Assembly: GCA_016937575.1 (NCBI GenBank)
Contig: JAFHKN010000003.1
Span: 1-50,692 of the forward strand
DNA: 50,692 nucleotides
From: Roseomonas aeriglobus
GTDB lineage: Bacteria > Pseudomonadota > Alphaproteobacteria > Sphingomonadales > Sphingomonadaceae
Direction of reading: 5' to 3'
The first letter of the stretch is position 1, and every line of letters starts with the position of its first letter. The notes beneath the pieces were generated by a model, which was given only the letters and a program-made list of their open reading frames with translations, had not been told where the DNA came from and made no database searches. This document shows, one piece after another, positions 4,664 through 42,388 of the stretch. The position numbers and the translations under genes were made by a program.

Positions 4664-4721
4664 TGTGACACCTGCAAACCCTTGGAAAAGCTGTGTGGCT
4701 TTCAGCGGTAAATGTCACGAA
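4664..4721. repeat. Left inverted repeat of the transposition module
   Basis: The inner block 4689-4721 matches the reverse complement of 8560-8592 at 31 of 33 positions (shared core GCTTTCAGCGGTAAATGTCA). The outer block TGTGACACC at 4664-4672 matches TCTGACACC read inward from 8614. Together they give a 55-58 bp imperfect terminal repeat, as in Tn552/Tn5053-like elements that carry multiple transposase-binding sites at each end. Confidence 0.8.
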
Positions 4722-4729
4722 TGTCAGCA

Positions 4730-5560
4730 CTAGGTGACGCCGATGACGAGGGTGCTGCGGGCGGCTTCCACGACATCCTCGCTGATGGTTGCGAGGCCGT
4801 TGATCTTCAGCACGCGCTCGATCTGCACGAACAGGCGGTGCAGTAGCCGGAAATTGCCACCTGTGATCCGAACGATGGCCGCGACCGCTTGCGCGTCGGT
4901 GAAATCGGCGTCGTCGAGGGCAAGGCCGAGGTCGCGCCAGCGGCGGGTCAGCACGAAGGTCAGCTCCGCATCCTGCAACGGCCGATATTGGTGGGCGAAG
5001 CCGACCCGGCTGAAGAGCTGGGGATAGCGCGCCATGCGCTTTTCGATACCGGGCATCCCGATCAGGATGAGCCCGATCCCCTGCCGATCGAACACGTCAC
5101 GCATGTATTCCAGCGCCGTCGTCGACAGGCGCTCGGCTTCATCGACGATCACCATTTCGACGTAGCGGGTATGACGACTGACATAACGGACCTGTCCGAC
5201 TTTCTGAGGCCGGACGTGTTCGTCGATGCAATGGTCCACTCGGTCGAGCAGCCGGGGCAGATCCTGCCGCAGTTCGCGCAACGTGCTGCCGACCGAAGGT
5301 GTGTAGAAAACCGCACGTGCCTGAGCGAGGTGGGCATAGATTTCCAGGTCGGATGGATCGCGTGGTCCCCAAACGGTGAGCAGGGGCGCAGCCTTGTGCC
5401 ATCGGGCATACCGGCAGGCCGAGAGCGTTTTGCCGACGCCCGCTGGGCCATGACACAGGCCGATGTAGCGATGCTTCCGAACGGCGTCGGCGAACTCGAT
5501 GAAGCGGCGGTGCTCTTGGGTCGAGATGAAGCTGGTCGCGCGCGTACTGCCGGCGGTCAT
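4730..5560 (-). CDS. tniB: AAA+ transposition ATPase (TniB/IstB-like)
   Basis: 276 aa. Walker A GPAGVGKT at 38-45 and Walker B VIVDEAER at 137-144, followed by a C-terminal helical region. By family it binds ATP and DNA, selects or marks targets and activates its partner transposase. Its ATG overlaps the transposase stop as TGATG, so the two are translationally coupled. The gene ends just inside the left inverted repeat. No TniQ homologue accompanies it, so the set is closer to Tn552 (transposase, ATPase, resolvase) than to Tn5053. A general IstB-type helper is the alternative name; function in transposition is well supported by context. Confidence 0.87.
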   Translation of the reverse strand: MTAGSTRATSFISTQEHRRFIEFADAVRKHRYIGLCHGPAGVGKTLSACRYARWHKAAPLLTVWGPRDPSDLEIYAHLAQARAVFYTPSVGSTLRELRQDLPRLLDRVDHCIDEHVRPQKVGQVRYVSRHTRYVEMVIVDEAERLSTTALEYMRDVFDRQGIGLILIGMPGIEKRMARYPQLFSRVGFAHQYRPLQDAELTFVLTRRWRDLGLALDDADFTDAQAVAAIVRITGGNFRLLHRLFVQIERVLKINGLATISEDVVEAARSTLVIGVT

Positions 5561-7047
5561 CAGTCGCCCTCATAATAGGTGCGTAGCTTCGGCCGGCTTG
5601 GTGGCGGCGCCGGAGTCGCTGCGGAGACCGGCGCCAATTCAGGCAATCGCGCCGGTTTCGCGATCGGAGCCGGAGTGCGCAGGATCGCTGGAAGATAGTC
5701 TATAACGCTCGATTGCTTCTCCCTGATCTCCTGCCGCAGGCGACGCCGATGCGCGATCCGCGCCGCCTGGATGTCCTTTAGGGTGACACTGTTCGCGGCA
5801 TGATCCGCATCGATCGCCCGGCACAGGAACACGTTGCGATGGAACACGCGGACTTCGCCCATGTCGCGGGGGTCGTAGCGGATCGTCACCGGCTCGCCGA
5901 CGTAGGCTGCCAGCGTCGGATCGAAGTAGCGCAATCCCTCGAAGCGGATGCCGTCGCGGTGAACGGTGCGGGGCTTGGCGACCATGACCAGCAGCATGTC
6001 CAGTTCGGCAAGCGTCTCCGGCATCCGGGGCAACCAGCCATCGCCCCGCCATGCGGCTATCGGTGCCGCCCCGATCGAACGGTGGGGACGCGCATTATAG
6101 GTCGAGATGATCCAGGCGCCGATCGCCGCGTCCAGTTCGGCCAGTGAAAGGGCCGGTGGGGATACCGTCTTGCCGGCGCGCAGGTTGCCGGGGAGTTCGG
6201 CCAGCAGTTCGGTGTTGATGGTCCGGAACAGCCGCTCGATCTTGCCACGCCCCTGCGGACGGGCGACGGCTGAGTAGATCAGCCTGATACGCAGATCGGC
6301 CGCGGCCTGTTCGAGGTGGAGGCTGGTGAAGTCCGATCCGTGATCGACGTGCAGCACATCGGGAATGCCGCACACCGGCCATGCCGGATCGGCCTTGCGC
6401 CAGATGGCCTGGCGCAGCGCGAGCGACGTATTGAGCGCGGATGGCGCGCCGAGAAACACCATGTAGCCTGCGATCACGCGGGAATGATCGTCCACCACCG
6501 TCGTCAGCCACGGCCGTGTCGGCCTGCCACGAGCATCGAGGATGAGGATGTCGAGTTCGGTGTGGTCGGCCTGCCAGATCGCGTTCGGGCGATCGGCGCG
6601 ATGACGATGGACCATCTCGTATTTGTCGCGGAAAGCGGCAGCGCCCTCATGCGCGAGCGTCAGCATCGCAGGATCGATCCGGCGCACGATATCGCGAACG
6701 CTGCCGTAGGACGGCGTGTGCCATCCATATTCGCTAGCGACATGCACAACGCGACGATGGATGGTTGCGATCGAGGCCGGCGGCTTCGTCAGCGCCATGC
6801 CCTGGATCAGTTGGACCAGACCCTCCGGGAACGTCCGTGTGCCAGCTTCCGGACGAAGCGGCCGCGCGAGGCCCATTGGACCGTTGGCGGTATAGCGAGC
6901 GAGCCATCGCTGGACGGTGCGCAGCGAAACACCGGCATCGGCCGCGACTTTGGCCAGCGACGCGCCACCATGCAGATGGGCGCGAAGTGCCGCCATTCGC
7001 CGCGCCACCTCCGCGCCTCCTGTCTCCGATCTTCGACCATCCGCCAT
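5560..7047 (-). CDS. tniA: DD35E transposase with Mu-type C-terminal domain (TniA-like)
   Basis: 495 aa from the chosen ATG at 7047, which has AGGGGG a few bases upstream; the frame stays open to 7353, but that part overlaps the divergent resolvase and reads as non-coding. An N-terminal helix-turn-helix (about 30-50) is followed by an rve integrase core with D161 (ADHTELD), D235 (HVDHGSDF) and E271 (GKIERLF), giving DD35E spacing, and then a beta-rich Mu-transposase-like C-terminus (about 390-440). It performs strand transfer together with the ATPase encoded next. The length fits Tn552 p480 and TniA-type proteins. The gene lies inside the inverted repeats. Confidence 0.9.
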   Translation of the reverse strand: MADGRRSETGGAEVARRMAALRAHLHGGASLAKVAADAGVSLRTVQRWLARYTANGPMGLARPLRPEAGTRTFPEGLVQLIQGMALTKPPASIATIHRRVVHVASEYGWHTPSYGSVRDIVRRIDPAMLTLAHEGAAAFRDKYEMVHRHRADRPNAIWQADHTELDILILDARGRPTRPWLTTVVDDHSRVIAGYMVFLGAPSALNTSLALRQAIWRKADPAWPVCGIPDVLHVDHGSDFTSLHLEQAAADLRIRLIYSAVARPQGRGKIERLFRTINTELLAELPGNLRAGKTVSPPALSLAELDAAIGAWIISTYNARPHRSIGAAPIAAWRGDGWLPRMPETLAELDMLLVMVAKPRTVHRDGIRFEGLRYFDPTLAAYVGEPVTIRYDPRDMGEVRVFHRNVFLCRAIDADHAANSVTLKDIQAARIAHRRRLRQEIREKQSSVIDYLPAILRTPAPIAKPARLPELAPVSAATPAPPPSRPKLRTYYEGD

Positions 7048-7194
7048 GGTGATCGCCCCCTGTCCGATAGAGGATCGTTCAGCGGACTCGGCCGGTCGAT
7101 CTCCAACAGCACGGAAAGCGGCCGAAAGCCGAGTCTCACATAGATGGTACCATATGTTTTGCGGTGATGGGGCCTTATACGTTACACTCCGGCT
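7048..7194. promoter_or_regulatory. Divergent transposase/resolvase promoter and candidate res site
   Basis: The 147-bp gap between two divergent starts is where Tn552/Tn3-type elements keep res. It contains an imperfect 20-bp dyad at about 7138-7157 centred on ATGGTACCAT. The resolvase start (7195) has no Shine-Dalgarno sequence but has TTATAC about 14 bp upstream, so its message may be leaderless or nearly so. The res assignment is inference from position and symmetry. Confidence 0.45.
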
Positions 7195-7788
7195 ATGACG
7201 CACACGCTGATCGGCTATGCCCGCTGCTCGACCGACAAACAGGACCTTGCCGCCCAGCATGACGCGCTGCTCAAGCTCGGGGTGGCGGCCGATCGCATCT
7301 ACACCGACAAGGGGCTCACCGGCACGAACCGGGATCGCCCCGGCCTCGACCAAGCACTAGCCGCAGTACGAAGCGGCGACACGCTGGTAGTGCCCAAGCT
7401 TGACCGGCTCGCGCGATCAGTTCCGGACGCGCGCGCGATCGGGGACGGCCTTGCTGCCCGTGGGGTGAAGCTACAGCTTGGTGCCAGCGTCCACGATCCG
7501 GCTGACCCGATGGGTAAGCTGTTCTTCAACATCCTTGCCACCTTTGCCGAGTTCGAGGCGGACCTCATCAAGCTCCGCACCCGCGAGGGCATGGCGGTCG
7601 CCCGCGCTAAGGGGAAGCTGCGTGGGAAGAAGCCCAAGCTGTCCGATCGGCAGCAGAAGGAGCTTCGTCGCATGTACGATACCGACGACTACTCGATCAG
7701 CGACCTCGCCGAGCTGTTCTCGATTTCCCGGCCGACCGTTTATCGAACGCTCGGCAGGCATGCTGCCACAGCGGCGGCAGCGGCATGA
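7195..7788 (+). CDS. Serine resolvase of the transposition module
   Basis: 197 aa. Catalytic domain with IGYARCSTDKQDL (nucleophile Ser12), PKLDRLARS and the EFEADLIKLRTREG helix; a C-terminal helix-turn-helix (SISRPTVYRTL, about 174-184) and an alanine-rich tail. It would resolve cointegrates at a res site in the 147-bp divergent region upstream. Its arrangement, divergent from transposase plus ATPase, matches the BinR/TniR position in Tn552 and Tn5053 families. Its stop overlaps the start of the membrane passenger (ATGA, 7785-7788). Confidence 0.92.
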   Translation: MTHTLIGYARCSTDKQDLAAQHDALLKLGVAADRIYTDKGLTGTNRDRPGLDQALAAVRSGDTLVVPKLDRLARSVPDARAIGDGLAARGVKLQLGASVHDPADPMGKLFFNILATFAEFEADLIKLRTREGMAVARAKGKLRGKKPKLSDRQQKELRRMYDTDDYSISDLAELFSISRPTVYRTLGRHAATAAAAA

Positions 7789-8579
7789 ATCTCACCGAAC
7801 AACAAGATGCGAGTAGTGCTCGCCGCTTCGACTTCATCCTTCGCCAAGGGCTGTGGCTGGTTTCACTTCTAGCATCCATCACGCTGCCCGTTGTTTACTT
7901 TTCACGTCCGTTTGCGCCGGTTACACCCGGCCTCACCAGTATTCTCGGTTGGGGTAGCCTCTTAGGCGTGATAGCTGGCTTGGGGTCTGCGGCTTTTTAT
8001 GTTCCTCTGATGCGGCGTCAGTCTACCATTGGCCGCATCGGTTATTGGCTTACCTCGGCCATGATGGGTGCTTTCGCCGGTTGGGCAGCACTGGGTCTGC
8101 TGAATGACCGTGGTGGCACCCCTCTCGGAGATGTCGAACTGCCGATCGCCCGCGTCGAGCAGGCAGGTGATCAGTTCAGCATTTATACTATGCTACCTTC
8201 CTCACCCTCAAATATTATGCGGATATCATCGACCGAAATCATTGGCCTTCCTGTTGCCGGCCAATGCCTGTTCGGCAGATTGCGACGTGGTCTGTTCGCG
8301 GCTTCCTGGCTGTCGCGCCTTTCGGTTACGTCATGTTCGGCAAAGCGAGGTGAAGCAGGAACGAACGTGCTGATGCCGATAAATCGATGGATGGACTGGC
8401 GCTGGCACAAACCACGATCCTTCAGGCTGGACGGATCTCACCAAGCCTATGATGAGGCCCTTCCTCAGAGCGCAACGTGCCGGACCGAGCGGGAAAGCTG
8501 GCTTTATCAGTGCTTCCCCAAAGGAGCAGGCCGCAGGAGGCGACAATCAGTGATGTCACTTCGTGACATTTACCGCTGA
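7785..8579 (+). CDS. Small membrane protein of unknown function, C-terminal half suspect
   Basis: 264 aa as read. The first 110 residues contain three hydrophobic segments (about 24-42, 50-72 and 85-103) and look like a real inner-membrane protein. From about residue 165 the sequence becomes Arg/Ser/Cys-rich and ends inside the right inverted repeat, which is not typical of a coding end. Another frame at 8263-8350 encodes a plausible membrane-like tail (RGFLAVAPFGYVMFGKAR then stop), so the gene may be frameshifted near 8230-8290. Both copies of the circle agree there, so this is either a real mutation or a shared consensus error. The start overlaps the resolvase stop. Function not recognised. 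Confidence 0.5.
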   Translation: MNLTEQQDASSARRFDFILRQGLWLVSLLASITLPVVYFSRPFAPVTPGLTSILGWGSLLGVIAGLGSAAFYVPLMRRQSTIGRIGYWLTSAMMGAFAGWAALGLLNDRGGTPLGDVELPIARVEQAGDQFSIYTMLPSSPSNIMRISSTEIIGLPVAGQCLFGRLRRGLFAASWLSRLSVTSCSAKRGEAGTNVLMPINRWMDWRWHKPRSFRLDGSHQAYDEALPQSATCRTERESWLYQCFPKGAGRRRRQSVMSLRDIYR

Positions 8580-8614
8580 AAGCTACAAAGCTGGGGCAGG
8601 GGGTTGGTGTCAGA
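8560..8614. repeat. Right inverted repeat of the transposition module
   Basis: Reverse-complement partner of 4664-4721 (31 of 33 inner positions at 8560-8592, plus the outer TGACACC). Its inner edge adds a separate small palindrome, TGTCAC TTC GTGACA, at about 8555-8569. The outer edge merges into the palindromic box at 8608-8630, so the exact terminal base is uncertain. Confidence 0.78.
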
Positions 8615-8630
8615 ACCGACCGGTTATGAC
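8608..8630. repeat. 23-bp palindromic box, left bracket of the sulfur island
   Basis: Arms TGTCAGAACCG and CGGTTATGAC form an imperfect palindrome, which with flanks extends to GGTGTCA...TGACACC. The same box in the same orientation is at 17636-17658 with one mismatch. The two copies enclose exactly the sulfur gene island. Half of the palindrome also resembles the left transposon end near 4655-4672. It could be a transposon terminus or a recombinase crossover site. Confidence 0.8.
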
Positions 8631-8681
8631 ACCAGCAGCGTTACGGACTAGAACGGCGAAACAGTAAACGTGTCGGCGTGA

Positions 8682-9227
8682 TCAGTCGGGGATCAGTGCC
8701 CAACCACGCAGTTGCAAAGTCGCCATAGTCGTCAGCGCAGACACGTCAGTTTCGACACTCTTTCCTACCGTAGCGGGGTCGATCCCGTTTCCGATAAGAG
8801 CTTGGCTGCATACCCGAACGGATACACCCGCCTTTTTCAACGCCTCAATTAAGGCAAGGTTGGGATTCGCAGCTACTCCCGTCTTTGTCGCATAGGCGCG
8901 ATCTTCGGTAACGATGGGCGTCGCCGGACCGTGGACGATCACGACGACATCGCCTTGTTCTGGACGAACGCCATCGTTGCCCAGCAGGTTCAAAAAGCGG
9001 GCGACCTTCTCCAGCGATGGATTGATTTTATCCGGCGTTGCCGCGGCCTTGGTCACATTGAACAGCACGCGATAGCGCAACTTGCGATCGGGCCGTTCCG
9101 CAGCACCTTCGACGGGTGTGATCGCGCCATATCCCGGTATCACCGCCTGCCTAGGCACGCCGGCTGAAGCACTGACGCTGCTCATGAGTGACAAGCATCC
9201 TGCAAGAGCAATGATTGGCATACGCAT
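8682..9227 (-). CDS. DsrE-family periplasmic sulfur protein
   Basis: 181 aa. Residues 1-23 are a signal peptide ending in SASAG. The mature part has the DsrE-type alpha/beta pattern (VVVIVHGPATPIV, then NPNLALIEALKKAGVSVRVCSQAL) with one cysteine at about residue 140 in the position used by this family for sulfur relay. The start ATG has AGAAGGA upstream. It is the last gene of the minus-strand arm peroxiredoxin, ArsR regulator, DsrE, divergent from the persulfide dioxygenase arm. I infer a periplasmic carrier or sensor of sulfane sulfur; the exact substrate is unknown. Confidence 0.8.
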   Translation of the reverse strand: MRMPIIALAGCLSLMSSVSASAGVPRQAVIPGYGAITPVEGAAERPDRKLRYRVLFNVTKAAATPDKINPSLEKVARFLNLLGNDGVRPEQGDVVVIVHGPATPIVTEDRAYATKTGVAANPNLALIEALKKAGVSVRVCSQALIGNGIDPATVGKSVETDVSALTTMATLQLRGWALIPD

Positions 9228-9255
9228 CCGCTTTTTCCTTCTTCAGCCGAAATGA

Positions 9256-9663
9256 TCAGCCAACTCTCGCAAAAACGGCCGCACCGATGTTTTGCGGTCG
9301 AACCACGGACGGCGTCTCGCGCGGTCGCACTGGGCGGGGGGCCGGGGCCGTTTGGGGAGCCGACAGATCGTCGGCTCCGAACATCGCCTCCAGGGTTCGC
9401 ACACACAGTGCGGCTGCATCGTCGGCAAGACGGTAGTGAACCTGCTTCGCCTCACGCCTGGTCTTCACCAGATCGGCGCGCCGCAGCTCGGCAAGCTGCT
9501 GACTGAGCGCTGGTTGGGTCACGCCCGTGGCCGCCTCGATGTCCGCCACCTGCCGTTCGCCACCCAGCAGATAGGACAGGATCATAAGGCGCTGCGGCTG
9601 CGCGAACACGCGCAGCTTCTCGACTGCAACGTCGGCAAGCGCGCGGGACTGGTAGATCGCCAT
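9256..9663 (-). CDS. ArsR/SmtB-family regulator, probable sulfide or persulfide repressor
   Basis: Winged-helix protein of about 135 aa: AQPQRLMILSYLLGGERQVADIEAATGVTQP, then the recognition helix ALSQQLAELRRADLV and the wing KQVHYRL, as in BigR/SqrR/YgaV. The context (persulfide dioxygenase, SQR, DUF442, YeeE) is the classic BigR-type regulon. Known BigR/SqrR sensors use two conserved cysteines; here the first position reads ILSYL (Ser) and only one cysteine is present in the whole protein (C88 counting from a GTG at 9666). A proline-rich tail of about 35 residues is added. The ATG at 9663 shares a base with the peroxiredoxin stop (TGATG). It probably represses the divergent promoters; the ligand is inferred. 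Confidence 0.85.
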   Translation of the reverse strand: MAIYQSRALADVAVEKLRVFAQPQRLMILSYLLGGERQVADIEAATGVTQPALSQQLAELRRADLVKTRREAKQVHYRLADDAAALCVRTLEAMFGADDLSAPQTAPAPRPVRPRETPSVVRPQNIGAAVFARVG

Positions 9664-10280
9664 CACCGGTCAGCCTTCGTCTGGTGAAACCAGTCGGCGC
9701 CTGCGTTCCCCGGCAAAGCGGGAGGCAGGAGCACGTCGTCGCCCGGCTGCCAGTCAGCGGGCGTATAGGCCTCGCCATCGGCCGAACGCTGCAACGCCCT
9801 GACCGTGCGAAGCATCTCGTCGACCGAGCGCCCGACATTCATCGGATACCAGCTGAGTGCGCGGATAATGCCTTTGGGATCGATGAAGTAGGTTGCACGT
9901 ACCGTTGAGGCATCGCCAGCCTGCTCGTCGAGCATGCCGTAGGCATACCCAACCGCCATCGACGGATCCTCGATCACCGGAAACGGCACCTCGACATCAA
10001 AAACGTCGTGGATCGCGCGAAGCCAGGCGACATGAGAGTAGAGGCTGTCGACCGACAGCCCCAACAATACGCAATCCAGCTCCTCGAATTGAGGGGCCGC
10101 TTTAGCCAAGGCCACAAACTCGCTCGTGCAAACCGGCGTGAAGTCAGCAGGGTGCGAGAAAAACACAATCCAGCGCCCACGATACTGATCGAGCGCAATC
10201 TCGCCCTGAGTGGTGCGGGCGGTGAAGTTCGGGGCTGCATCCCCGATGCGCAGCGAGCGCGGCATGTTCGCTTCCATCAT
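9663..10280 (-). CDS. Peroxiredoxin, 1-Cys (Prx6-like) type
   Basis: 205 aa from the ATG at 10280, which has GGAGG just upstream; a TTG at 10295 overlaps that site and is unlikely. Thioredoxin fold with the peroxidatic motif HPADFTPVCTSEF (Cys at about 51) and the extended C-terminal domain (PADWQPGDDVLLPP) typical of Prx6/AhpC2-like enzymes. It reduces hydroperoxides and, in some family members, persulfides, in the cytosol. It is first in the minus-strand arm and divergent from the persulfide dioxygenase, consistent with co-induction during sulfide oxidation. Confidence 0.9.
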   Translation of the reverse strand: MMEANMPRSLRIGDAAPNFTARTTQGEIALDQYRGRWIVFFSHPADFTPVCTSEFVALAKAAPQFEELDCVLLGLSVDSLYSHVAWLRAIHDVFDVEVPFPVIEDPSMAVGYAYGMLDEQAGDASTVRATYFIDPKGIIRALSWYPMNVGRSVDEMLRTVRALQRSADGEAYTPADWQPGDDVLLPPALPGNAGADWFHQTKADR

Positions 10281-10371
10281 TTCCATTCCTCCCAAATGGC
10301 ACGAACACCCCGTTGACGCAATACGCTTACACAGCTACATAAACCATGAGTTTGTTTAAATGGAGATGGTC
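10281..10371. promoter_or_regulatory. Divergent control region of the sulfur island
   Basis: On the plus strand TTGACG (10313-10318) and TACATA (10336-10341) are separated by 17 bp, a good sigma70-like promoter for the nine-gene arm. Immediately downstream is a short dyad AAAC-N5-GTTT (about 10341-10353) followed by TTTAAA, a candidate operator for the ArsR-type regulator. The promoter for the minus-strand arm must lie in the same 90 bp but is not distinct. Confidence 0.6.
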
Positions 10372-11289
10372 ATGGACCCGGTTTTGAGCGAAGCCAACGC
10401 CCAGATCAGACGCGCAAAAGCGGCCGGATCGCCGGTCGTTCAGTCCTTCTTTGATGAGCCTACCAACACAGCGACCTACGTCGTTTGGGACGTGGCGACG
10501 AAAAAGGCTGCGATCGTCGACAGCGTCCTCGATTTTGACGCCGCGGCTGGCCGGACCAAAACCGCGTCGGCGGACGCAGTGATCGCTTACGTGCGGGATC
10601 AGGGACTGACGGTCGATTGGCTGCTGGAAACCCATGCTCATGCCGATCACCTGTCTGCGGCACCTTATCTTCAGCAGGCGCTTGGCGGGCAGCTCGCGAT
10701 CGGTCGTGAGATCATCCGGGTTCAGAACGTGTTCGGCAAAATCTTCAACGCCGGCACCGATTTTGAGCGCAACGGTTCCGAGTTCGACCGGCTGTTCGAG
10801 GACGGCGACCGCTTTGCCATCGGCAACATCGACGCCATTGCGCTGCACGTGCCCGGCCATACGCCGGCGGACATGGCCTATGCGATTGGGGACGCGGTCT
10901 TCACCGGCGATACGCTCTTCATGCCCGATTACGGCACCGCGCGGGCAGACTTCCCTGGTGGCGACGCACGCCAGCTATTCCGCTCGATCCGCCGGCTCAT
11001 GCAGCTGCCGGACGAGACGCGCCTGTTCCTCTGCCACGACTACAAGGCGGTGGGTCGCGACCAATATGTCTGGGAGACGACTGTAGGCGCACAGCGTGTC
11101 GGCAACGTGCATGTCCACGAAGGGGTCAGCGAAGACGACTTCGTCGCGATGCGGACCAGTCGCGACGCCACCTTGTCGATGCCGAAGCTCATCCTGCCCT
11201 CGATCCAGGTGAACATGCGCGGTGGTCATCTGCCGGAGCCGGAAGCCAACGGCACCCGCTACCTCAAAATTCCGCTGGATGCGCTGTGA
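10372..11289 (+). CDS. Persulfide dioxygenase 1 (ETHE1/Blh-like metallo-beta-lactamase fold)
   Basis: 305 aa from the ATG at 10372 (GGAG upstream; ATGs at 10360 and 10366 are alternatives). MBL-fold motif THAHADH (about 87-93), PGHTPADM, FTGDTLF and FLCHDY supply the iron ligands expected of ETHE1-type enzymes, which oxidise glutathione persulfide to sulfite. It is the first gene of the plus-strand operon directly behind the divergent promoter. The domain is Blh-like but without the fused DUF442 part, which is encoded separately at 12170. A second, different dioxygenase lies at the other end of the island (16712). Confidence 0.92.
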   Translation: MDPVLSEANAQIRRAKAAGSPVVQSFFDEPTNTATYVVWDVATKKAAIVDSVLDFDAAAGRTKTASADAVIAYVRDQGLTVDWLLETHAHADHLSAAPYLQQALGGQLAIGREIIRVQNVFGKIFNAGTDFERNGSEFDRLFEDGDRFAIGNIDAIALHVPGHTPADMAYAIGDAVFTGDTLFMPDYGTARADFPGGDARQLFRSIRRLMQLPDETRLFLCHDYKAVGRDQYVWETTVGAQRVGNVHVHEGVSEDDFVAMRTSRDATLSMPKLILPSIQVNMRGGHLPEPEANGTRYLKIPLDAL

Positions 11290-11726
11290 TGCCAGGCTTT
11301 CCCCATGCCATGCCGCTCGAAGGCTTCATCGGCGGGCTGATGATCGGTGTCGCCGCGGCGATCATGCTGCTGGGCAACGGGCGCATCGCCGGTGTCAGCG
11401 GCATGTTCGCAAGAGTTTTGGGTCTTACCGATGGAGGTCCACCATGGGCCCTCGCGCTGCTCTTTACCGCGGGTCTGCCCTTGGGCGCGGGTATTGCTGC
11501 GGCCAGTTTGGGCGTGAAAGCCAGCTTTCCGGCATCGCTTTCGCTGATTGCCGTCGCCGGTCTGGTCGTCGGTATCGGAACGCGGCTTGGGTCCGGGTGC
11601 ACCAGTGGTCACGGCGTATGCGGCCTGTCCCGCCTGTCGCCCCGGTCCATCGCCGCGACCGTCACGTTCATGGCGACCGGCGTCGTCACGGTCACGATCA
11701 TGCGTCTGTCCGGGGTGATACTGTGA
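11289..11726 (+). CDS. YeeE/YedE-family sulfur transporter, first half
   Basis: 145 aa, four predicted membrane helices, with the family motif GSGCTSGHGVCG (about 100-111) that carries the conserved cysteines. YeeE/YedE proteins such as TsuA import thiosulfate or related sulfur compounds through the inner membrane. Here the protein is split in two genes, as in many BigR-type operons. The start overlaps the dioxygenase stop (TGATG) and the stop overlaps the next ATG. The transported compound is unknown. Confidence 0.88.
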   Translation: MPGFPHAMPLEGFIGGLMIGVAAAIMLLGNGRIAGVSGMFARVLGLTDGGPPWALALLFTAGLPLGAGIAAASLGVKASFPASLSLIAVAGLVVGIGTRLGSGCTSGHGVCGLSRLSPRSIAATVTFMATGVVTVTIMRLSGVIL

Positions 11727-12151
11727 TGCGCCAGAACCTCATTTCACTCGCTAGCGGGACGCTGTTCGGCGCCGGCCTTGCCATCTCCGGAATGATCGAT
11801 CCGGCGCGGGTGCGCGCGTTCCTCGATGTCACCGGCGCGTGGGACCCGACCTTGGCGTTCGTCATGGCAGGCGCGATCCTGCCGATGGCGATAGCCTGGT
11901 TCGTCGTGCGGCGTCGCTCGACCCCGATCGCGGCCGAACAATTCCACACGCCCGCCACCTCGCCGATCGACCGGCGCCTCATCGGCGGTGCGGCCTTGTT
12001 CGGCATAGGCTGGGGCATCGTCGGATTGTGCCCAGGTCCCGCCATTGCCGCACTGGCGATCCAGCCTCTGCCGGCACTGGTCTTCATCGCTGCAATGGCC
12101 CTCGGCGTTGCCGTCCACCGCTTTGCATTCACTTCCCGCCGTTCGGCCTGA
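11726..12151 (+). CDS. YeeE/YedE-family sulfur transporter, second half (DUF6691-like)
   Basis: 141 aa, about four membrane helices, with ASGTLFGAGLAISGM and GLCPGPA motifs that mirror the cysteine motif of the first half. It likely forms one transporter with the preceding protein. The ATG shares its first base with the preceding stop (11726). A spacer of 18 bp containing AGGAG separates it from the DUF442 gene. Role in uptake or movement of sulfur species is inferred from family and context. Confidence 0.87.
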   Translation: MRQNLISLASGTLFGAGLAISGMIDPARVRAFLDVTGAWDPTLAFVMAGAILPMAIAWFVVRRRSTPIAAEQFHTPATSPIDRRLIGGAALFGIGWGIVGLCPGPAIAALAIQPLPALVFIAAMALGVAVHRFAFTSRRSA

Positions 12152-12169
12152 TCAGACAGGAGACATCAC

Positions 12170-12604
12170 ATGGCTTTCAAGCAGATCACCTCGTCCTTCT
12201 CTGCCGCCCCCCAGCTGACGCAAGACGACCTCGCCGCTGCCGCGAAGGCAGGATATCGCTCGATCATCTCAAGCCGCCCGGACGGCGAGGAGGCGGGCCA
12301 GCCAAGCGCGGAAGAAATGGCCCGAATGGCAGGCGACCACGGTCTCGCGTTTGCCCATGTCCCTATCGTACCGGGCAAGGCGACTGACGCCGATGCGGAT
12401 CGCATGAAGGAGGCGCTAGCCACGCTGCCACAGCCGACGCTCGGCTTCTGCCGTAGCGGGACGCGCGCGGCGACCTTGTGGGCGTTGGCCGAGGCCGATC
12501 GCGCCGACCCGGCGACGATCGTCGACCAAGCAAAGGCAGCCGGGTACGACCTTGCCGATCTCACGCCTGCGCTGAAGCGCCGTTCCGAAAGGGCTGATCA
12601 ATGA
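12170..12604 (+). CDS. DUF442 / TIGR01244 sulfurtransferase-phosphatase-like protein
   Basis: 144 aa. Tyrosine-phosphatase-like fold with the active-site loop FCRSGTRA (Cys94), the family signature that replaces the classical HCxxGxxR. In other bacteria this domain is fused N-terminally to the ETHE1-type dioxygenase as Blh. Here it stands alone in the same operon. It may act as a rhodanese-like carrier passing sulfane sulfur between SQR and the dioxygenase. AGGAG precedes the ATG, and its stop overlaps the sqr ATG (ATGA, 12601-12604). Confidence 0.88.
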   Translation: MAFKQITSSFSAAPQLTQDDLAAAAKAGYRSIISSRPDGEEAGQPSAEEMARMAGDHGLAFAHVPIVPGKATDADADRMKEALATLPQPTLGFCRSGTRAATLWALAEADRADPATIVDQAKAAGYDLADLTPALKRRSERADQ

Positions 12605-13833
12605 CCTACGACATCGTCATCATCGGGGGCGGTGCCGCCGGCATCGCGACCGCTTCCAGCATTCTGAAGCGCAACGCCAAAGTGACGATCGCGGTCGTCG
12701 ATCCGGCGACCGACCATTATTACCAGCCCGGCTGGACGATGGTGGGGGCCGGCGTCTTCACTCCCGAACAGACGCGCAAGGCCGAATCCGACATAATGCC
12801 AAAGGGCGTTAAGTGGGTACGGTTGCCCGCCGTTGCCATCGACCCCGACCGTAACACGGTCGAGCTCGAAGACGGTGACACATTGACCTATCGCGTTCTG
12901 GTCGTCGCGCCCGGGCTGCGCCTGGCGTGGGAGAAGATCGAAGGGCTGCCTGAGGCTCTCGGCCGCAACGGCGTCACCTCCAACTATCGCTACGATCTGG
13001 CACCCTACACCTACCAGCTCGTCAAGGAATTGCGGCAGGGGCGGGCGCTGTTCTCGCAGCCACCCATGCCGATCAAGTGCGCCGGCGCACCGCAGAAAGC
13101 GATGTATCTCTCCTGCGACATCTGGCGGGATAGCGGCGTTCTCCCAGCTATCGACGTCGAGTTCCATAATGCCGGCGCAGCCCTGTTCGGGGTCCCGACC
13201 TACGTCCCGGCGCTGATGGAATATGTCGAGAAGTACGGTATCGATCTCAGGCTTGAGTCCAACCTGGTCGCGGTCGACGCCGATCGCCGCGTCGCCACGT
13301 TCGAGCGCAAGCAGGACGGCGTCTCCGAGCGGATCGAACGTGAGTTCGATATGCTCCATGTCGTGCCACCTCAGGTGTCACATGCGGTCGTCGCAAATAG
13401 CCCGCTTGCGGCTGCGAGCGGCTTCGTCGAGGTCGACGAGACTACGCTGCGGCACAAGCGATTTGAAAACATCTTTGGCCTTGGCGATGCCGCTGGCACC
13501 AGCAACGCCAAGACCGCCGCTGCTGCTCGCGTCCAGGCGCCCGTGGTCGCAGTCAACGCGCTGGCCGCGCTCGACGGCAGACCCCCCGTTGCCGATTATA
13601 ATGGTTACGGCTCATGCCCGCTCACGGTCGAACGCGGTAAGATCGTCCTCGCCGAGTTCGGCTATGGCGGAAAGCTGCTGCCCAGCTTCCCATCCTGGCT
13701 GCTGGACGGAACGCGTCCGACGCGCACCGCGTGGTTCCTGAAAGAGCGGATGCTGCCCCCGATCTACTGGCAGGGCATGCTGAAAGGCCGTGAGTGGATG
13801 GCCGCTCCACACGAGATCGGCAAGGCGGCATGA
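12601..13833 (+). CDS. sqr: Sulfide:quinone oxidoreductase
   Basis: 410 aa FAD-dependent flavoprotein: N-terminal dinucleotide fold IIGGGAAGIATAS, a second FAD segment FGLGDAAGT (about 292-300), and cysteines at 160, 172 and 339 (PIKCAGAP, LSCDIW, YGSCPL). C160 and C339 fit the redox pair of SQR; the C-terminal WFLKERMLPPIYWQGMLKG is an amphipathic membrane-association region. It oxidises sulfide to a persulfide acceptor and passes electrons to quinone at the cytoplasmic membrane. It overlaps both neighbours (ATGA on each side). This is the key enzyme of the island. Confidence 0.92.
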   Translation: MTYDIVIIGGGAAGIATASSILKRNAKVTIAVVDPATDHYYQPGWTMVGAGVFTPEQTRKAESDIMPKGVKWVRLPAVAIDPDRNTVELEDGDTLTYRVLVVAPGLRLAWEKIEGLPEALGRNGVTSNYRYDLAPYTYQLVKELRQGRALFSQPPMPIKCAGAPQKAMYLSCDIWRDSGVLPAIDVEFHNAGAALFGVPTYVPALMEYVEKYGIDLRLESNLVAVDADRRVATFERKQDGVSERIEREFDMLHVVPPQVSHAVVANSPLAAASGFVEVDETTLRHKRFENIFGLGDAAGTSNAKTAAAARVQAPVVAVNALAALDGRPPVADYNGYGSCPLTVERGKIVLAEFGYGGKLLPSFPSWLLDGTRPTRTAWFLKERMLPPIYWQGMLKGREWMAAPHEIGKAA

Positions 13834-14612
13834 TCCTCGAACCAATCCAGTATCTGCTTGGCGCCTTGTCCGGCAGCCTGGTCGGATTCACCCTCGGGCT
13901 CGTCGGTGGCGGTGGCTCGATCCTCGCCGTGCCGCTCATGGTGTATCTGGTGCGCGTTCCCGACGCGCACCTCGCCATCGGTACGAGCGCGTTTGCCGTG
14001 GCGGCCAATGCCGCGACCGGTCTGATCGGTCATGCCAAGGCTCATACCGTAAAATGGCGGTGCGGCGGCATGTATGCGACTGCCGGCGTCATCGGTGCGC
14101 TACTCGGATCCACCGCGGGCAAGGCCGTCGATGGCGGCAAGCTCCTCTTTCTATTCGCGCTCGTCATGATCGTCGTCGGCGTTGTGATGCTGCGCGGGCG
14201 GGGTGACGCTGGTAATCCCGGTGCAGAATGCAACCGGGAGAAGGCGCCCAAGGTGCTGGGTTATGGCCTCGGCACCGGACTGTTTTCAGGCTTCTTTGGC
14301 ATCGGTGGTGGCTTCCTGATCGTTCCCGGACTGATTGGATCGACGGGCATGCCGATCCTCAACGCCGTCGGCACGTCGCTGATCGCCGTCACCGCGTTCG
14401 GGCTAACGACCGCTGCCAACTACGCGTTCTCCGGGCTTGTGGATTGGCCGCTCGCCTTCGCCTTCATCGGCGGTGGAGTTATCGGCGGGTTGATCGGCAC
14501 GCGGATCGCTAAGCGTCTGGGCACGGGCAGTACGCTCACCACGGTTTTCGCAATGCTGATCTTCGTGGTCGCAGCCTATATGCTCTGGAAGAGCGCAGGC
14601 GCGTTTCTGTGA
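13830..14612 (+). CDS. TauE/SafE-family sulfite exporter
   Basis: 260 aa with 7-8 membrane helices and the two duplicated family motifs, GFTLGLVGGGGSILAVPL near the N-terminus and GFFGIGGGFLIVPGL in the second half, followed by NAVGTSLIAVTAFG. Start chosen at the ATG overlapping the sqr stop (ATGA, 13830-13833). It probably exports the sulfite made by the persulfide dioxygenases, completing detoxification of sulfide. Confidence 0.9.
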   Translation: MILEPIQYLLGALSGSLVGFTLGLVGGGGSILAVPLMVYLVRVPDAHLAIGTSAFAVAANAATGLIGHAKAHTVKWRCGGMYATAGVIGALLGSTAGKAVDGGKLLFLFALVMIVVGVVMLRGRGDAGNPGAECNREKAPKVLGYGLGTGLFSGFFGIGGGFLIVPGLIGSTGMPILNAVGTSLIAVTAFGLTTAANYAFSGLVDWPLAFAFIGGGVIGGLIGTRIAKRLGTGSTLTTVFAMLIFVVAAYMLWKSAGAFL

Positions 14613-15421
14613 TGGGCAGCGCAATTGCCATCGGGCCGCTGATGATGGCGGTCGATCGCGGATTGGCGGTTCTGTGCGTCGCCGTGTTCCTCGGTTTGAC
14701 GGCGCTGGCGGGACGGTTCCGCTTCCCGCGAGTGTCGATGGTCGCGACCAGTGCTATTGTCGTCGGGCTGGTGACGGCCCGGATCGGCTATGTCGCGACG
14801 CATTGGGCGAGCTACGCCGATGCTCCACTTTCCATCCTAGCTATATGGCAGGGAGGCTTCTCGGCCGTCGCCGGCCTCGCCGGCGCTGCGGTAACGCTGG
14901 CGTTCCGGCTCGGCCGAACGCGCGCTCTGGCGATAGGCTGGGCAGCGCTTGCCGTAGCTGGCGGCCTCTGGTTCACGCTTCAGGCGCTGATCCCGCCCGT
15001 GACCTACGGCCCCTTTCCCTATCATCTCGCCCTAACGACGCCATCCGGCGCTCCGCTCCCGCTTGATCGTTTCCGGGGTCGTCCCTTCGTGGTCAATCTG
15101 TGGGCGACATGGTGCGGCCCATGCCGGCGCGAGCTGCCGATGCTCGATGCTGCTGCGTCGCGCCGTGGAGAGGTTCCGATTCTGCTCGCCGATCAGGGTG
15201 AGGCGCCGGCGACCGTTACCCAGTTCCTTACCCGCGAAGGCATCGGTGCCGGCAACGTCGCGCTTGATCCCGACCGTAGGCTTTCCCGAGCCTTCGAAGT
15301 CGCCGGCTATCCCGCAACCGCCTTCGTCGCCGCGAATGGCACGATCGTGCAGCTTCAGCTCGGAGAGTTGTCGCGCGCCGCGCTCGCCGATGGAATTGAT
15401 AAGGCAAGGAAACACCGATGA
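14612..15421 (+). CDS. Lgt-like membrane domain fused to TlpA-type thioredoxin domain
   Basis: 269 aa from the ATG at 14612 (sharing a base with the tauE-like stop). The N-terminal part (about 1-128) has four membrane helices and a stretch TARIGYVATHW...IWQGGFSAVAGL that resembles prolipoprotein diacylglyceryl transferase, without that enzyme's full set of catalytic residues that I can recognise. The C-terminal part is a TlpA/ResA-like thioredoxin fold with NLWATWCGPCRRELPML (WCGPC at about 167-171) and a cis-Pro segment AGYPATAF. It probably reduces periplasmic disulfides or polysulfides. It overlaps the following DsbA gene (ATGA, 15418-15421). Confidence 0.8.
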   Translation: MGSAIAIGPLMMAVDRGLAVLCVAVFLGLTALAGRFRFPRVSMVATSAIVVGLVTARIGYVATHWASYADAPLSILAIWQGGFSAVAGLAGAAVTLAFRLGRTRALAIGWAALAVAGGLWFTLQALIPPVTYGPFPYHLALTTPSGAPLPLDRFRGRPFVVNLWATWCGPCRRELPMLDAAASRRGEVPILLADQGEAPATVTQFLTREGIGAGNVALDPDRRLSRAFEVAGYPATAFVAANGTIVQLQLGELSRAALADGIDKARKHR

Positions 15422-16047
15422 ACCGCCGCAACCTTCTCTTTCGCGGCGCTCTAGCCGCGCTTGCTTTCGCCGTGCCGATGACACCTGCGGTCGGGCAGCA
15501 GCAGCCTGATTTGTCGCGCAAGGCAGTCGTCGACGATCCCGTAGCCCCCAAGCGGGCCGGCACCGCCTATGACGTCACCGTTGTCGAGTTCTTCGACTAC
15601 AACTGCCCCTATTGCCGTCGCATGGAGCCGGTGCTGAACGCGCTGCTTCGCTCCGACCCGAAGGTCCGGATCGTGTATCGGGATTGGCCAATATTCGGAC
15701 CCGCCTCCCGTGAGGCGTCCCGGGCGGCCGTCGCGAGCCAGTGGCAGGGCAGGCATGCCGCCTTCCATGGAGCGCTGCTTGCCTCGCCGGCGCGGCTCGA
15801 CAGCGCCGGTATCAGGGCAGCTGCTGTGAAAGCCAAGGTGGATTGGCCGCGTCTGCAACGTGACCTGAAGACGCGTGGCGCGGAAATCGATGCGCTGCTC
15901 GCACGCACCAATGCGATTGCCGAAGCGATCGGGTTCAATGGGACGCCGGCGCTGATCGTCGGCTCGCAGGTCGTGGCCGGCGCGGTCGATCTGCCGGCGC
16001 TCCGCCGCCTCGTCGCCACGGCGCGCAGCAAGCCCGGAGGGCGTTGA
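15418..16047 (+). CDS. DsbA-family periplasmic thiol oxidoreductase, CPYC type
   Basis: 209 aa. A signal peptide with MNRRNLLFRG followed by a hydrophobic core and a likely cleavage after PAVG (about 26); the Arg pair hints at Tat export, though Sec is possible. Thioredoxin fold with FFDYNCPYCRRM (CPYC at 63-66), the DWPIFGP insert and cis-Pro at NGTPALIVG. This belongs to the DsbA/Com1-like group. It probably partners with the TlpA-like fusion upstream and the second DsbA downstream in handling periplasmic thiols or persulfides. Confidence 0.88.
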   Translation: MNRRNLLFRGALAALAFAVPMTPAVGQQQPDLSRKAVVDDPVAPKRAGTAYDVTVVEFFDYNCPYCRRMEPVLNALLRSDPKVRIVYRDWPIFGPASREASRAAVASQWQGRHAAFHGALLASPARLDSAGIRAAAVKAKVDWPRLQRDLKTRGAEIDALLARTNAIAEAIGFNGTPALIVGSQVVAGAVDLPALRRLVATARSKPGGR

Positions 16048-16049
16048 GC

Positions 16050-16691
16050 GTGCCGGGGCCACTCAGTCGGAGGCAGGCGGTCGGGCTCGGCGCTGTAGTC
16101 GTGGGGGGCTGGGCGGTCGGACAGGTGCTGCGGCGCACCGCCCCGATTGGGCGTGACGTTGGTCCGACCGCCGACCTGATCCTGACAGGCGGCAGTTCGC
16201 CTGAGCACGGTCCTGCCGACGCGACGTTGCGGCTTGCCGTTTTCACCGATTATCGTTGCCCGGCCTGCCGTCACGCCTTCCCCGCGTTGGAAGAGGCCGT
16301 GCGACGCGATGGCAAAATTAGGGTCATCTACAAGGATTGGCCGATCTTCGGTCCACCGTCTGAACGTGCCGCGAGCGTTGCGCTCAGCTGTGCCGAACAG
16401 GGCATCTACCCGGTCGTCCATCGCCAGCTGATGGCCGACAACCGTACGATTGACGACGACATGCTGCGGGACGTCGTAATCGGCGCTGGCGGTGACTGGC
16501 TGAGCGCAACGACGTGGCTTGCTTCGCATGCACAGGCTGTCGCGGCGCGCCTGCGTGCGAACGGCCAAGAGGCCTATTCGATCGGCTTGGCCGGCACCCC
16601 GGGCTTTCTTGCCGGACGCATGCTGGTGATGGGCGCGATCGATCCGGGTGATTTCGAGCGGTTGTTCGCGCGGGCGCGGGCAGAAAGCTAA
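16050..16691 (+). CDS. DsbA-family thiol oxidoreductase, CPAC type
   Basis: 213 aa from the GTG at 16050, which sits at a good distance from GGAGGG; a TTG at 16044 that overlaps the preceding stop is the alternative. The N-terminus LSRRQAVGLGAVVVGG looks like a twin-arginine-type signal or anchor. The catalytic motif is FTDYRCPACRHAF (CPAC), with DWPIFGPPSERAA and cis-Pro at AGTPGFLAG. It is a paralogue of the preceding CPYC protein with a different dipeptide, so its redox potential should differ. It ends 20 bp before the second persulfide dioxygenase. Confidence 0.87.
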   Translation: MPGPLSRRQAVGLGAVVVGGWAVGQVLRRTAPIGRDVGPTADLILTGGSSPEHGPADATLRLAVFTDYRCPACRHAFPALEEAVRRDGKIRVIYKDWPIFGPPSERAASVALSCAEQGIYPVVHRQLMADNRTIDDDMLRDVVIGAGGDWLSATTWLASHAQAVAARLRANGQEAYSIGLAGTPGFLAGRMLVMGAIDPGDFERLFARARAES

Positions 16692-16711
16692 CAGAGCGAG
16701 AGGATGAAAAC

Positions 16712-17602
16712 ATGATCGAGTATAAGCACGATGGTATGACCGTTGCGTCGCTCCATGATGAGCGCACTGGTAGCTTCCAATATGTTGTCGTCGACGACAC
16801 TACGAAGACGGCTGCGATCATCGATCCAGTTCTGGATTTTGACCCGCGCGCTGGTGCGACCGCGACCCGAAACGCGGATCTTATCCTCGACTATGTGCGC
16901 GAAAAGGGGCTAACCGTCGAATGGGTGCTCGACACCCACCCACACGCCGATCATTTTTCAGCCGTTCCGTACCTCACCGGCAAGACCGGTGGCAAAACCG
17001 CGATCGGCAACAAGGTCGTGGAAGTGCAAAAGCTGTGGCGGGACATCTACTGCCTGCCCGATCTCGCCGTCGACGGCAGCCAGTGGGACCGGTTGTTTGC
17101 GGATGGCGAGCGTTTCCGGATCGGCACGCTCGATGCTCATGTCATGCTGTCGCCGGGCCATACGCTTGCCTCGATCACTTATGTCGTCGGTGACGCCGCG
17201 TTCGTTCACGATACGCTGATGGTTCCCGATAGTGGCACAAGCCGAGCGGACTTCCCGGGTGGTGATGCTCATTCGCTGTGGTGCTCGATCCGCGCCATCC
17301 TCGATCTGCCACCCGAAACCGCAACCTATGTTGGGCATGACTATGGCAAGGATGGCAGGGACGTACTTGGTCGCTCGACCGTCGCCGATCAGCGTCGCGA
17401 CAACATCCATGTTCACGATGGCATCGACGAAGCCGAGTTCGTCGCGACCCGCGAGAAACGCGACGCATCGCTCCCACTACCCGACCTGATGCTCGCCGCG
17501 CTTCAGGTGAACATACGTGGCGGCCGGCTGCCGGATGCGGACAAGTGTGGGACGGCGTTTCTCAAGGTGCCTCTGAACCGGTTTGGACCTGGTGCTTCAT
17601 AG
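16712..17602 (+). CDS. Persulfide dioxygenase 2 (metallo-beta-lactamase fold)
   Basis: 296 aa. THPHADH (75-81), LSPGHT, VHDTLM and VGHDYG give the ETHE1-like metal site. It differs clearly from the first dioxygenase (THAHADH, FTGDTL, FLCHDY), so it is a diverged paralogue rather than a recent duplicate. GAGAGGATG-type spacing precedes the ATG. It closes the plus-strand sulfur operon and is followed within 35 bp by the right palindromic box, so it is the last gene of the island. Confidence 0.9.
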   Translation: MIEYKHDGMTVASLHDERTGSFQYVVVDDTTKTAAIIDPVLDFDPRAGATATRNADLILDYVREKGLTVEWVLDTHPHADHFSAVPYLTGKTGGKTAIGNKVVEVQKLWRDIYCLPDLAVDGSQWDRLFADGERFRIGTLDAHVMLSPGHTLASITYVVGDAAFVHDTLMVPDSGTSRADFPGGDAHSLWCSIRAILDLPPETATYVGHDYGKDGRDVLGRSTVADQRRDNIHVHDGIDEAEFVATREKRDASLPLPDLMLAALQVNIRGGRLPDADKCGTAFLKVPLNRFGPGAS

Positions 17603-17635
17603 CTCAGTCCGCGCTAGGGCAGCTGCTGTTTCAAG

Positions 17636-17658
17636 TGTCAGAACCGAACGGTTATGAC
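17636..17658. repeat. 23-bp palindromic box, right bracket of the sulfur island
   Basis: Same orientation and 22 of 23 bases identical to 8608-8630. Read inward toward the island it gives GGTTCTGACACTTGAAAC, which resembles the left transposon end GGTTGTGACACCTGCAAAC. It therefore also qualifies as an outer right end of the transposon. Confidence 0.8.
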
Positions 17659-17852
17659 CCTCGGAGGGAGGGCGGCGGTATTCGACCATGCCGGCTCGGA
17701 AAGCTGCCCGGGCGCTAACCACCGCTTTTTGCCGTCCGTAAGCCAACGGATCAGCATTGCGCGTCGGTCGCACCGAATGTGGTTTCTGTCTCACGGAGCG
17801 TGCGTTCCCCGCATCGATCCGTCTCACGCAATGCGAGCCGAAAACCGCCCTA

Positions 17853-17934
17853 TATTGCAGTTCCGGGCGATCATCATTGCGAGCCGCTACATCTATTGCA
17901 GTTCCGGGCGATCATCATTGCGAGCCGCTACAGC
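17853..17934. repeat. 41-bp perfect-period tandem duplication
   Basis: Two adjacent copies beginning TATTGCAGTTCCGGGCG and ending GAGCCGCTACA(T/G)C, 41 bp apart, with a third start TATT then divergence. The sequence in one frame leads directly into the membrane-protein fragment. This looks like a slippage or recombination scar and is too short and few-copy to be a CRISPR array. Confidence 0.85.
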
Positions 17935-33132: not shown

Positions 33133-33287
33133 GGTCTATCCTTTCGTTTGCTGCGCAGCAAGATGACCGCGAAATTTACAAGTTCAAGCGATAAGAAATA
33201 AAGACAAATAGCGAGGATAAATAGGATCGAGAACTGGAACGACTGCAGCGGAAGCGAGGATAAATGTGAACATTACCCTCGCTGTCG

Positions 33288-37775: not shown

Positions 37776-37796
37776 GCCTTCATTCTGGCACGGGGT

Positions 37797-37854
37797 TGTG
37801 ACACCTGCAAACCCTTGGAAAAGCTGTGTGGCTTTCAGCGGTAAATGTCACGAA
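37797..37854. repeat. Left inverted repeat of the transposition module (second copy)
   Basis: Same as 4664-4721, paired with 41693-41747 here. Redundant assembly copy. Confidence 0.8.
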
Positions 37855-37862
37855 TGTCAGCA

Positions 37863-40180: not shown

Positions 40181-40327
40181 GGTGATCGCCCCCTGTCCGA
40201 TAGAGGATCGTTCAGCGGACTCGGCCGGTCGATCTCCAACAGCACGGAAAGCGGCCGAAAGCCGAGTCTCACATAGATGGTACCATATGTTTTGCGGTGA
40301 TGGGGCCTTATACGTTACACTCCGGCT

Positions 40328-41712: not shown

Positions 41713-41747
41713 AAGCTACAAAGCTGGGGCAGGGGGTTGGTGTCAGA
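41693..41747. repeat. Right inverted repeat of the transposition module (second copy)
   Basis: Same as 8560-8614. Redundant assembly copy; the palindromic box follows at 41741-41763. Confidence 0.78.
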
Positions 41748-41814
41748 ACCGACCGGTTATGACACCAGCAGCGTTACGGACTAGAACGGCGAAACAGTAA
41801 ACGTGTCGGCGTGA

Positions 41815-42360: not shown

Positions 42361-42388
42361 CCGCTTTTTCCTTCTTCAGCCGAAATGA

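Follow-up and report, generated by a model that had tools for sequence, protein, structure and literature searches.

The stretch of DNA analysed here (the window) is the entire contig C3 of the Roseomonas aeriglobus assembly, 50,692 bp long, and carries a set of sulfur genes (the sulfur island) between two copies of a short palindromic box. Taken as a whole, the comparisons make it likely that a family of small serine resolvases known from sphingomonad plasmids uses both boxes as crossover sites (subsite I). Judged from its sequence context, box 1, on the left, belongs as crossover subsite I to the res site of the resolvase that the plasmid encodes at 4064-4642 (res1), and box 2 would be the closing site of the sulfur module on its right. 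Comparison of loci that carry such sites shows that the flanks change at the sites while the DNA on the other side stays nearly identical.

Two boxes and the res site of the resident resolvase

The two box copies (8608-8630 and 17636-17658) lie on the same strand, differ at one position and are separated by 9028 bp, as a preliminary description of this DNA had reported; no such pair is expected by chance (0 in 100 shuffles). Both belong to a 26-bp form, GTGTCANAACCG-NN-CGGTTNTGACAC, with two inverted arms of 12 bp each and two free bases between them. Box 1 matches this form exactly and box 2 has one mismatch, in the outer arm; the difference between the two boxes is mid-site. Both thus have the anatomy of a serine resolvase site, a 2-bp centre flanked by two inverted arms.

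Box 1 now stands 3.9 kb from the accessory motif TGACACCTGCAAACC, from which it is separated by a Tn402-like transposon (Table 1). When this insert is removed in silico, box 1 comes to lie upstream of the resolvase gene, in the order resolvase start, motif, 26 bp, box 1. The same upstream layout was found in eight plasmid relatives of res1, with the 26-mer intact (≤3 mismatches) upstream of six and apparently interrupted in the other two (L037, L038; loci are given by their L labels). A free scan of 20-95 bp beside the sites placed the motif (≤3 mismatches) at 25-26 bp in all 17 motif-bearing sites, and box 1 has this spacing in the restored site. Because the joined flanks restore the layout of related resolvases, we read box 1 as res site I. 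Box 2 lacks an accessory site at the fixed spacing and is not upstream of a resolvase gene. The earlier idea that the boxes are crossover sites for one of the two serine recombinases of the window is supported for box 1, with the res layout pointing to the enzyme at 4064-4642.

In pRSMS3, a plasmid of Sphingobium sp. RSMS, the resolvase is present at 91% identity and the P450 region at 96%, and the sulfur island is missing. Related res-like stretches (77-78%) were also observed on small Paracoccus plasmids (NZ_CP031086.1, 6777-6857; NC_019356.1, 3203-3283); the site family may therefore extend beyond sphingomonads.

A third box copy, at 41741, had been overlooked in the preliminary description. 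The first 17.56 kb of the contig (1-17559) recur at its end (33134-50692) with 99.8% identity and an offset of 33,133, from which we infer that C3 is a circular plasmid of about 33.1 kb that was read past its start. Since the contig start repeats at the contig end, the copy at 41741 is most likely box 1 of the twice-read plasmid rather than a true duplication. A restriction-gene open reading frame (ORF) is intact at 33288-34349 and fragmented at 156-1216, which fits a contig end of low quality. Beyond these copies, the genome contains no other box at ≤3 mismatches. By Pfam, the rest of the plasmid encodes a replication initiator, a ParA-type protein, MobA/MobL, coupling proteins and a BsuBI/PstI-type restriction enzyme.

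Distribution of the sites and the module pattern

The site consensus (≤2 mismatches) was found in 25 of 397 genomes of the family and in at least 98 of 295 genomes of the genus, whereas the reversed pattern occurred in none; the two sets overlap by eleven genomes, including that of the window. A scan of the class (≤1 mismatch) recovered one of 289 genomes, the window's own, in a set with just four members of the family. Viral contigs contained no box. Sites also occur on large contigs, up to 5.19 Mb. The preliminary description had named a wide occurrence of the box outside mobile elements as a finding that would argue against it; the sites do reach such large contigs, but in the examined regions they are mostly paired around cargo. 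It had also proposed to check whether the box flanks other cargo elsewhere, and sites of this kind do. As judged by sight from the ORFs, without family tests, examples of this cargo are an efflux pump and two-component genes in L105, arsenic genes in L099, transport functions for cations and chromate in L104, a TonB receptor in L098, and small enzymes together with regulators in L096, L100 and L101.

We analysed 46 intervals between neighbouring sites, which form 28 groups by common cargo; the intervals come from regions chosen for holding at least two sites and are drawn from the matches listed, and this holds for all interval counts below. The first interval table excluded L156 (which overlaps L157), L107, L108r, L110, L024r and L034r, as well as site pairs closer than 300 bp or further apart than 17 kb (e.g. 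L098 4864/5000 and L158 3049/3139); the final grouping reinstated L156. The centres at the two ends are unequal in 43 of the 46 intervals and in 27 of the 28 groups. The sole group with equal centres (GA at both ends) comprises L109 (4498-16029), L166 (3017-14548) and L156 (3060-12648), and its module could be the one able to circularise. In L109, a resolvase gene ends within about 30 bp of one GA site. The L164 group has equal centres only when its sites are read as inverted.

The intervals were oriented with AA or AG to the right, so that the counts for left and right are partly built in; with this orientation, the right centre is AA in 33 intervals and AG in five. In three cargo groups the left centre varies and the right one stays AA. 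An orientation-free test included 95 distinct contexts, merged at 75% identity; it skipped L001-L016, five duplicates of the window, and any site that lay close to a locus end or had more than two mismatches. The motif was found at 24-27 bp in 20 contexts, never on both sides. The centre AA occurs in none of these 20 contexts compared to 31 of the other 75 (Fisher p 1.3e-4, to be taken as a guide only, as contexts are related by descent). One end of a module would thus often have the motif 26 bp outside and a centre AC, GA or TC, and the opposite end would have no motif and a centre that is mostly AA and sometimes AG. Some modules stand in rows, AC-GA-AA in L149 and TC-AC-AA in L099 and L067. 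The inner AC site of L099 (6840-6865) sits in a longer inverted repeat, GATTAGGACATG ... CATGTCCTAATC.

Flanking DNA changes at the sites

One switch point is a site with centre GA. Over 685 bp before this site, L157/L132 are 98.5-99.9% identical to L166/L127/L129, and the DNA after it is unrelated. Ten rows, representing seven distinct places, show five continuations after the site, of which two were assessed in part visually; for L147 the comparison was entirely visual. Before the site, L155 offers only 106 bp and L109 is 94-97% identical; beyond it, L109 has a single weak match of 44 bp. The right half-site varies with the continuation, and the left half and the centre are constant, apart from one base in L109. 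Furthermore, L109 and L166 share an 11.5-kb interval that runs between two GA sites at 99.6% identity, and outside it the two loci are unlike save for short weak matches. In another case, a 3.7-kb module of L153 recurs at 94% identity in L154, where it makes up the right-hand portion of a 9.3-kb interval. At the predicted start of the module in L154 there is a degenerate site with four mismatches; the runner-up within about 125 bp has 11.

The sulfur island in other genomes

Among the 13 ORFs tested for families between the boxes, 12 are of sulfur or redox type and one is an ArsR-type regulator; none of the 17 tested ORFs outside the boxes belongs to a sulfur family. The sulfur genes are thus confined to the inside among the tested ORFs, as had been claimed. 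We take the first MBL-fold hydrolase to be persulfide-dioxygenase-like, the FAD/NAD(P) oxidoreductase to be sulfide:quinone-reductase-like and the DUF6691 protein to be a probable transport partner (Table 1).

The island is 99.94-99.99% identical to that of the window in L026, L028, L065, L066 and L067 (6.3 kb compared in L067), and all five depart from the window immediately to the left of the box. Identity is lower in L027 and L068 (98%), L029 (89.8%), and L031 and L162 (81%). In L026, L027 and L068-L071 the island is the cargo of a transposon with both ends seen, for which the annotation of L026 and L027 gives AAA ATPase, IS481-type transposase and resolvase genes. The ends of this 13-kb transposon, TGTAGCGGCTCGCAATGATGATCGCCCGGAACTGCAATA, lie outside the boxes. 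A 6-bp target duplication is present in L026 (GCTAGC) and L068 (AGTAGC), and no clear one was seen in L027, L069, L070 and L071. L066 shares the 1.5 kb on the left of the island and the right transposon end; its left end is beyond the compared stretch. The proposal that the island is cargo of a 13-kb transposon is thus supported, in altered form, for other genomes, but the transposition module is a different one from that in the window and its ends are outside the boxes. The window retains the right end of the sulfur transposon, and at box 1 it switches to the res of the plasmid resolvase. The last 39 bp of this right end are in tandem in the window (17853-17891 and 17894-17932) and single in L026 and L027.

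L067 (Sphingomonas sp. Ag1) has another module, of 1.8 kb, before box 1, and ahead of this module lies the intact res of a 98% identical resolvase; by sight, the ORFs of the module are short-chain dehydrogenase-like and LysR-like. In L029 the sulfur module has flanks that differ from those of the window on either side; the short outer ends are similar to those of L105 and L099, which have other cargo. S. yanoikuyae SHJ carries two island copies on one plasmid. The island left end matched in 15 of the 397 family genomes, and only the match of the window's own genome was strong (next best 69% identity, E 1e-31).

Different borders of the island in other genomes had also been named as evidence that would count against the boxes. 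Such borders do occur in part: the divergent lineage L031/L162 has the right site about 0.9 kb further out (in L031 beyond a cytochrome gene), no box was seen at the left border in L032, L030 is cut on the right by an insertion sequence (IS) region, and in L028, L030 and L031 the left box is broken by an IS-like end. This sequence, TTTTTCAACAG, which also sits in the palindromic site upstream of the L037 resolvase, is probably an IS end; the box may thus be the target of an IS family. Among related transposons that carry other cargo, L113, L114, L115, L116 and L117 contain no site (≤4 mismatches) and L112 contains one; other cargo in such transposons is therefore not always bounded by sites. 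LR699074.1 (Beijerinckiaceae bacterium RH AL1), presumably from a member of another order than the host of the window, matches parts of the sulfur transposon at 99-100% identity, which suggests a recent wide transfer.

A transposon that splits the res

Judged from the restored layout, the element at 4694-8587 has split the res of the resolvase 4064-4642. It has inverted ends, TGT[G/A]GCTTTCAGCGGTAAATGTCACGAA, and a 6-bp target duplication. A second copy in the same genome (C4:19233-23127, L015) is 100% identical over the matched 3.9 kb and ends at the same bases. This copy is located 90 bp upstream of the start of another resolvase gene, whose res is unmapped, and no target duplication is evident there. 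An element end similar to that of 4694-8587 was also found in the res of L038. A different element, with the end ...GCGAGCGTTTACA, abuts box-type sites in L065 and, with a similar sequence, also in L051.

The family names TniA and TniB are, as we assume, the appropriate ones for two of its ORFs, which were assigned by Pfam domains. With these genes and its insertion at a res, the element resembles the Tn402/Tn5053 res site hunters, which insert into res according to PMC7765201, and both copies in the genome lie upstream of a resolvase gene. It differs from them in its 6-bp duplication, in place of 25-bp family ends with a 5-bp duplication, and in its ends of about 28 bp with another sequence; the four ORFs of the element that were tested did not include a TniQ. 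A search of the window with Tn402-family ends gave 9-10 mismatches at best and was rejected. Because the ends and the duplication differ from the Tn5053 family and no TniQ was found, we call the element Tn402-like only. A comparable case is In104 in the res of SGI1, where, according to PMC12217951, the insert splits the res and its removal restores it; host and insert are different from those described here.

Table 1. Features of the window, with coordinates on the contig and the basis of each assignment.
Feature	Coordinates	Strand	Basis
Serine resolvase res1 (192 aa); the boxes are its proposed sites	4064..4642	-	Pfam Resolvase 1e-42
Accessory motif of the res site	4666..4680	+	Identical to motif 25-26 bp from site I in relatives
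Target duplication AAGCTG, 6 bp, left	4688..4693	.	
Tn402-like transposon, 3,894 bp, between accessory motif and site I	4694..8587	.	Inverted ends, target duplication, Pfam
tniB	4730-5560		Pfam of the element: Mu-transpos_C/rve, AAA_22, Resolvase
tniA	5560-about 7050		Pfam domains, same element
Second serine recombinase of the window	7195-7788		Pfam Resolvase
ORF of the Tn402-like transposon	7785-8579		
Target duplication AAGCTG, 6 bp, right	8588..8593	.	
Box 1, read as res site I, centre AC	8607..8632	+	Pattern match and upstream layout of related resolvases
DsrE-family protein	8682..9227	-	Pfam PF02635
ArsR-type regulator	9256..9666	-	Pfam HTH_5
Peroxiredoxin (AhpC/TSA)	9663..10295	-	Pfam
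MBL-fold hydrolase	10360..11289	+	Pfam Lactamase_B
YeeE/YedE-type sulfur transport component	11286..11726	+	Pfam Sulf_transp
DUF6691 protein	11723..12151	+	Pfam
TIGR01244-type sulfur transferase	12170..12604	+	Pfam BLH_phosphatase; name from L027 homologue
FAD/NAD(P) oxidoreductase	12601..13833	+	Pfam Pyr_redox_2
TauE/SafE exporter	13794..14612	+	Pfam
TlpA-type thioredoxin, LGT-like N-terminal part	14609..15421	+	Pfam
Two DsbA-family proteins	15418..16691 (15418-16047, 16044-16691)	+	Pfam DSBA twice
Second MBL-fold hydrolase	16712..17602	+	Pfam
Box 2, putative right-end site, centre AA	17635..17660	+	Pattern match
Right end of the 13-kb sulfur transposon	17760..17932	-	Inverted match to left end in L026, L027, L068-L071

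Proposed mechanism and alternative explanations

A resolvase breaks both sites at the two bases of the centre and reseals the ends after a half turn. The rule for unequal centres is said to go back to Stark in 1991. According to PMC11607074, sites with unequal centres give at most trace recombinants. The switch of flanks would be made by a resolvase, through a 180-degree exchange between sites with the same centre. For the window, the simplest history would have three steps. A 13-kb sulfur transposon would have entered a plasmid like pRSMS3. The AC site of the plasmid and the AC site of the module, in direct orientation, would then have recombined into a hybrid box 1, removing the transposition genes and the intervening plasmid DNA. 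Lastly, the res-hunting transposon would have split that res.

A further-reaching and more tentative proposal is that whole modules are swapped by two events, AC with AC and AA with AA, which would amount to a natural, genus-wide cassette exchange in sphingomonads; we consider it possible, yet hold it to be somewhat doubtful. The centre dinucleotide would here serve as an address that blocks excision and lets modules with matching ends swap or string together (AC-GA-AA, TC-AC-AA), and the modules might be served in trans by the resolvases of resident plasmids. The unequal end centres in nearly all intervals are what such an exchange would need.

Several observations weigh against resolvase sites or against the exchange. 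Among solved structures, the nearest sequence relatives of res1 are DNA invertases (4m6f/3uj3; 4e-39, 3e-38), followed by gamma-delta/Tn3 resolvase. The motif (≤3 mismatches) accompanies the left site in just 14 of the 46 intervals. The left centre is not bound to the cargo over time: it is AC or GA in the sulfur group, which we count against exchange, AC, AG or GA in the L099r/L150/L151/L157 group, and AT or AC in L097/L100. L105 and L106 also agree beyond the sites, over about 150 bp on the left and 180 bp on the right; the shared unit there is therefore larger than from site to site, which also counts against the exchange. The same applies to L150 and L151, which come from one genome and whose identity drops toward the sites. 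This pair was first accepted as a module swap and then dropped for that decay. No two records were found in which different cargo stands between long flanks that are identical on either side; the outer ends shared around different cargo are short (for example L029/L105, 149 bp at 81% and 84 bp at 79%).

The decay in L150/L151 points to homologous recombination, and ordinary homologous recombination between short conserved ends, with the sites as mere landmarks, is the first alternative to be weighed. Pairs among L029, L105, L149, L150, L151 and L099r have common ends of about 110-150 bp on the left and about 45-160 bp on the right, at roughly 75-90% identity, which is consistent with this process. 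However, no homology was detectable outside the sites where the window was compared to L026 and L065 (left) and L029 to the window (both sides), nor at the GA site, and 26 bp are short for homologous recombination. We thus regard it as an unlikely explanation of the switches.

According to the preliminary description, the island might be excised as a circle by recombination between the two boxes. Such a circle could then reintegrate elsewhere. The boxes are direct, have the anatomy of site I and lie near a resolvase, and the module of L109/L166/L156 has equal centres at both ends. In the window, however, the centres differ (AC and AA), for which reason the island should not excise via box 1 and box 2, such pairs giving trace recombinants at most according to PMC11607074. 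Furthermore, box 1 is severed from its accessory motif. The insertion of a simple circle would leave equal centres, which were seen in one group only, and unequal ends prevail throughout (43 of 46 intervals, 27 of 28 groups, with L164 equal only as inverted). A 9-kb circle is thus unlikely, and as an account of how the island moves we give it very little credence.

The boxes could also be transcription terminators or operators of a regulator that flank operons by chance, as they are inverted repeats at gene ends. The fixed spacing of the motif before resolvase genes, the constant arms around a free centre and the switching of flanks make this highly improbable. Finally, the boxes had been suggested to be two nested right ends, here of the transposon at 4.7-8.6 kb. 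The distance of only 19 bp between box 1 and the right end of this transposon might speak for it, but the suggestion can be dismissed: the true ends, with their 6-bp duplication, are at 4694 and 8587, the copy on C4 ends at the same bases, and box 1 occurs beside related resolvases without the transposon.

Relation to known systems and significance

Resolvase-mediated shuffling at res sites was reportedly described by Kholodii in 2001. In such shuffling, as here, related res of different elements recombine and join new DNA at the res; in contrast, the modules described here are bounded on both sides, often by a res-like end and a bare end with a different centre, and some stand in rows. Rows of modules beside a primary site are known from the cassette arrays of integrons, which use a tyrosine recombinase and not a serine recombinase, whereas the modules here comprise multiple genes. 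In recombinase-mediated cassette exchange in the laboratory, heterospecific, unequal sites block excision and permit swaps; the end sites here are likewise unequal, and it is possible only that they work in that way. We know of no natural case of cassette exchange at heterospecific sites.

CinH-RS2 is described in PMC9501444, as is exchange that depends on res. The same source describes pdif (dif/Xer) modules on Acinetobacter plasmids, which are discrete gene modules between short recombination sites. Our modules resemble them in being discrete and bounded by short sites on plasmids, and differ in having a free 2-bp centre and 12-bp arms, as is typical of serine recombinases, with resolvase genes nearby. 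As judged on this 2-bp centre, the sites are not dif-like sites, which have Xer arms and a centre of about 6 bp.

Resolvase shuffling between res, Xer pdif modules and res-site hunters are thus already known (PMC9501444, PMC7765201). Our search of the literature, largely without subscription papers, found no description of modules between unequal res sites. What appears new within the literature searched is the occurrence, across a genus, of modules whose two ends are unlike, one being a res-like site and the other a bare site with a different centre, and of which some stand in rows.

If our interpretation is true, it would explain how sulfur, arsenic, efflux and other gene sets spread among the plasmids and chromosomes of Sphingomonas without integrases of their own. 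It would also give a biological role to a known biochemical rule, namely that the centre must match. Furthermore, the site pattern can serve as a search key for modules that are missed by current annotation.

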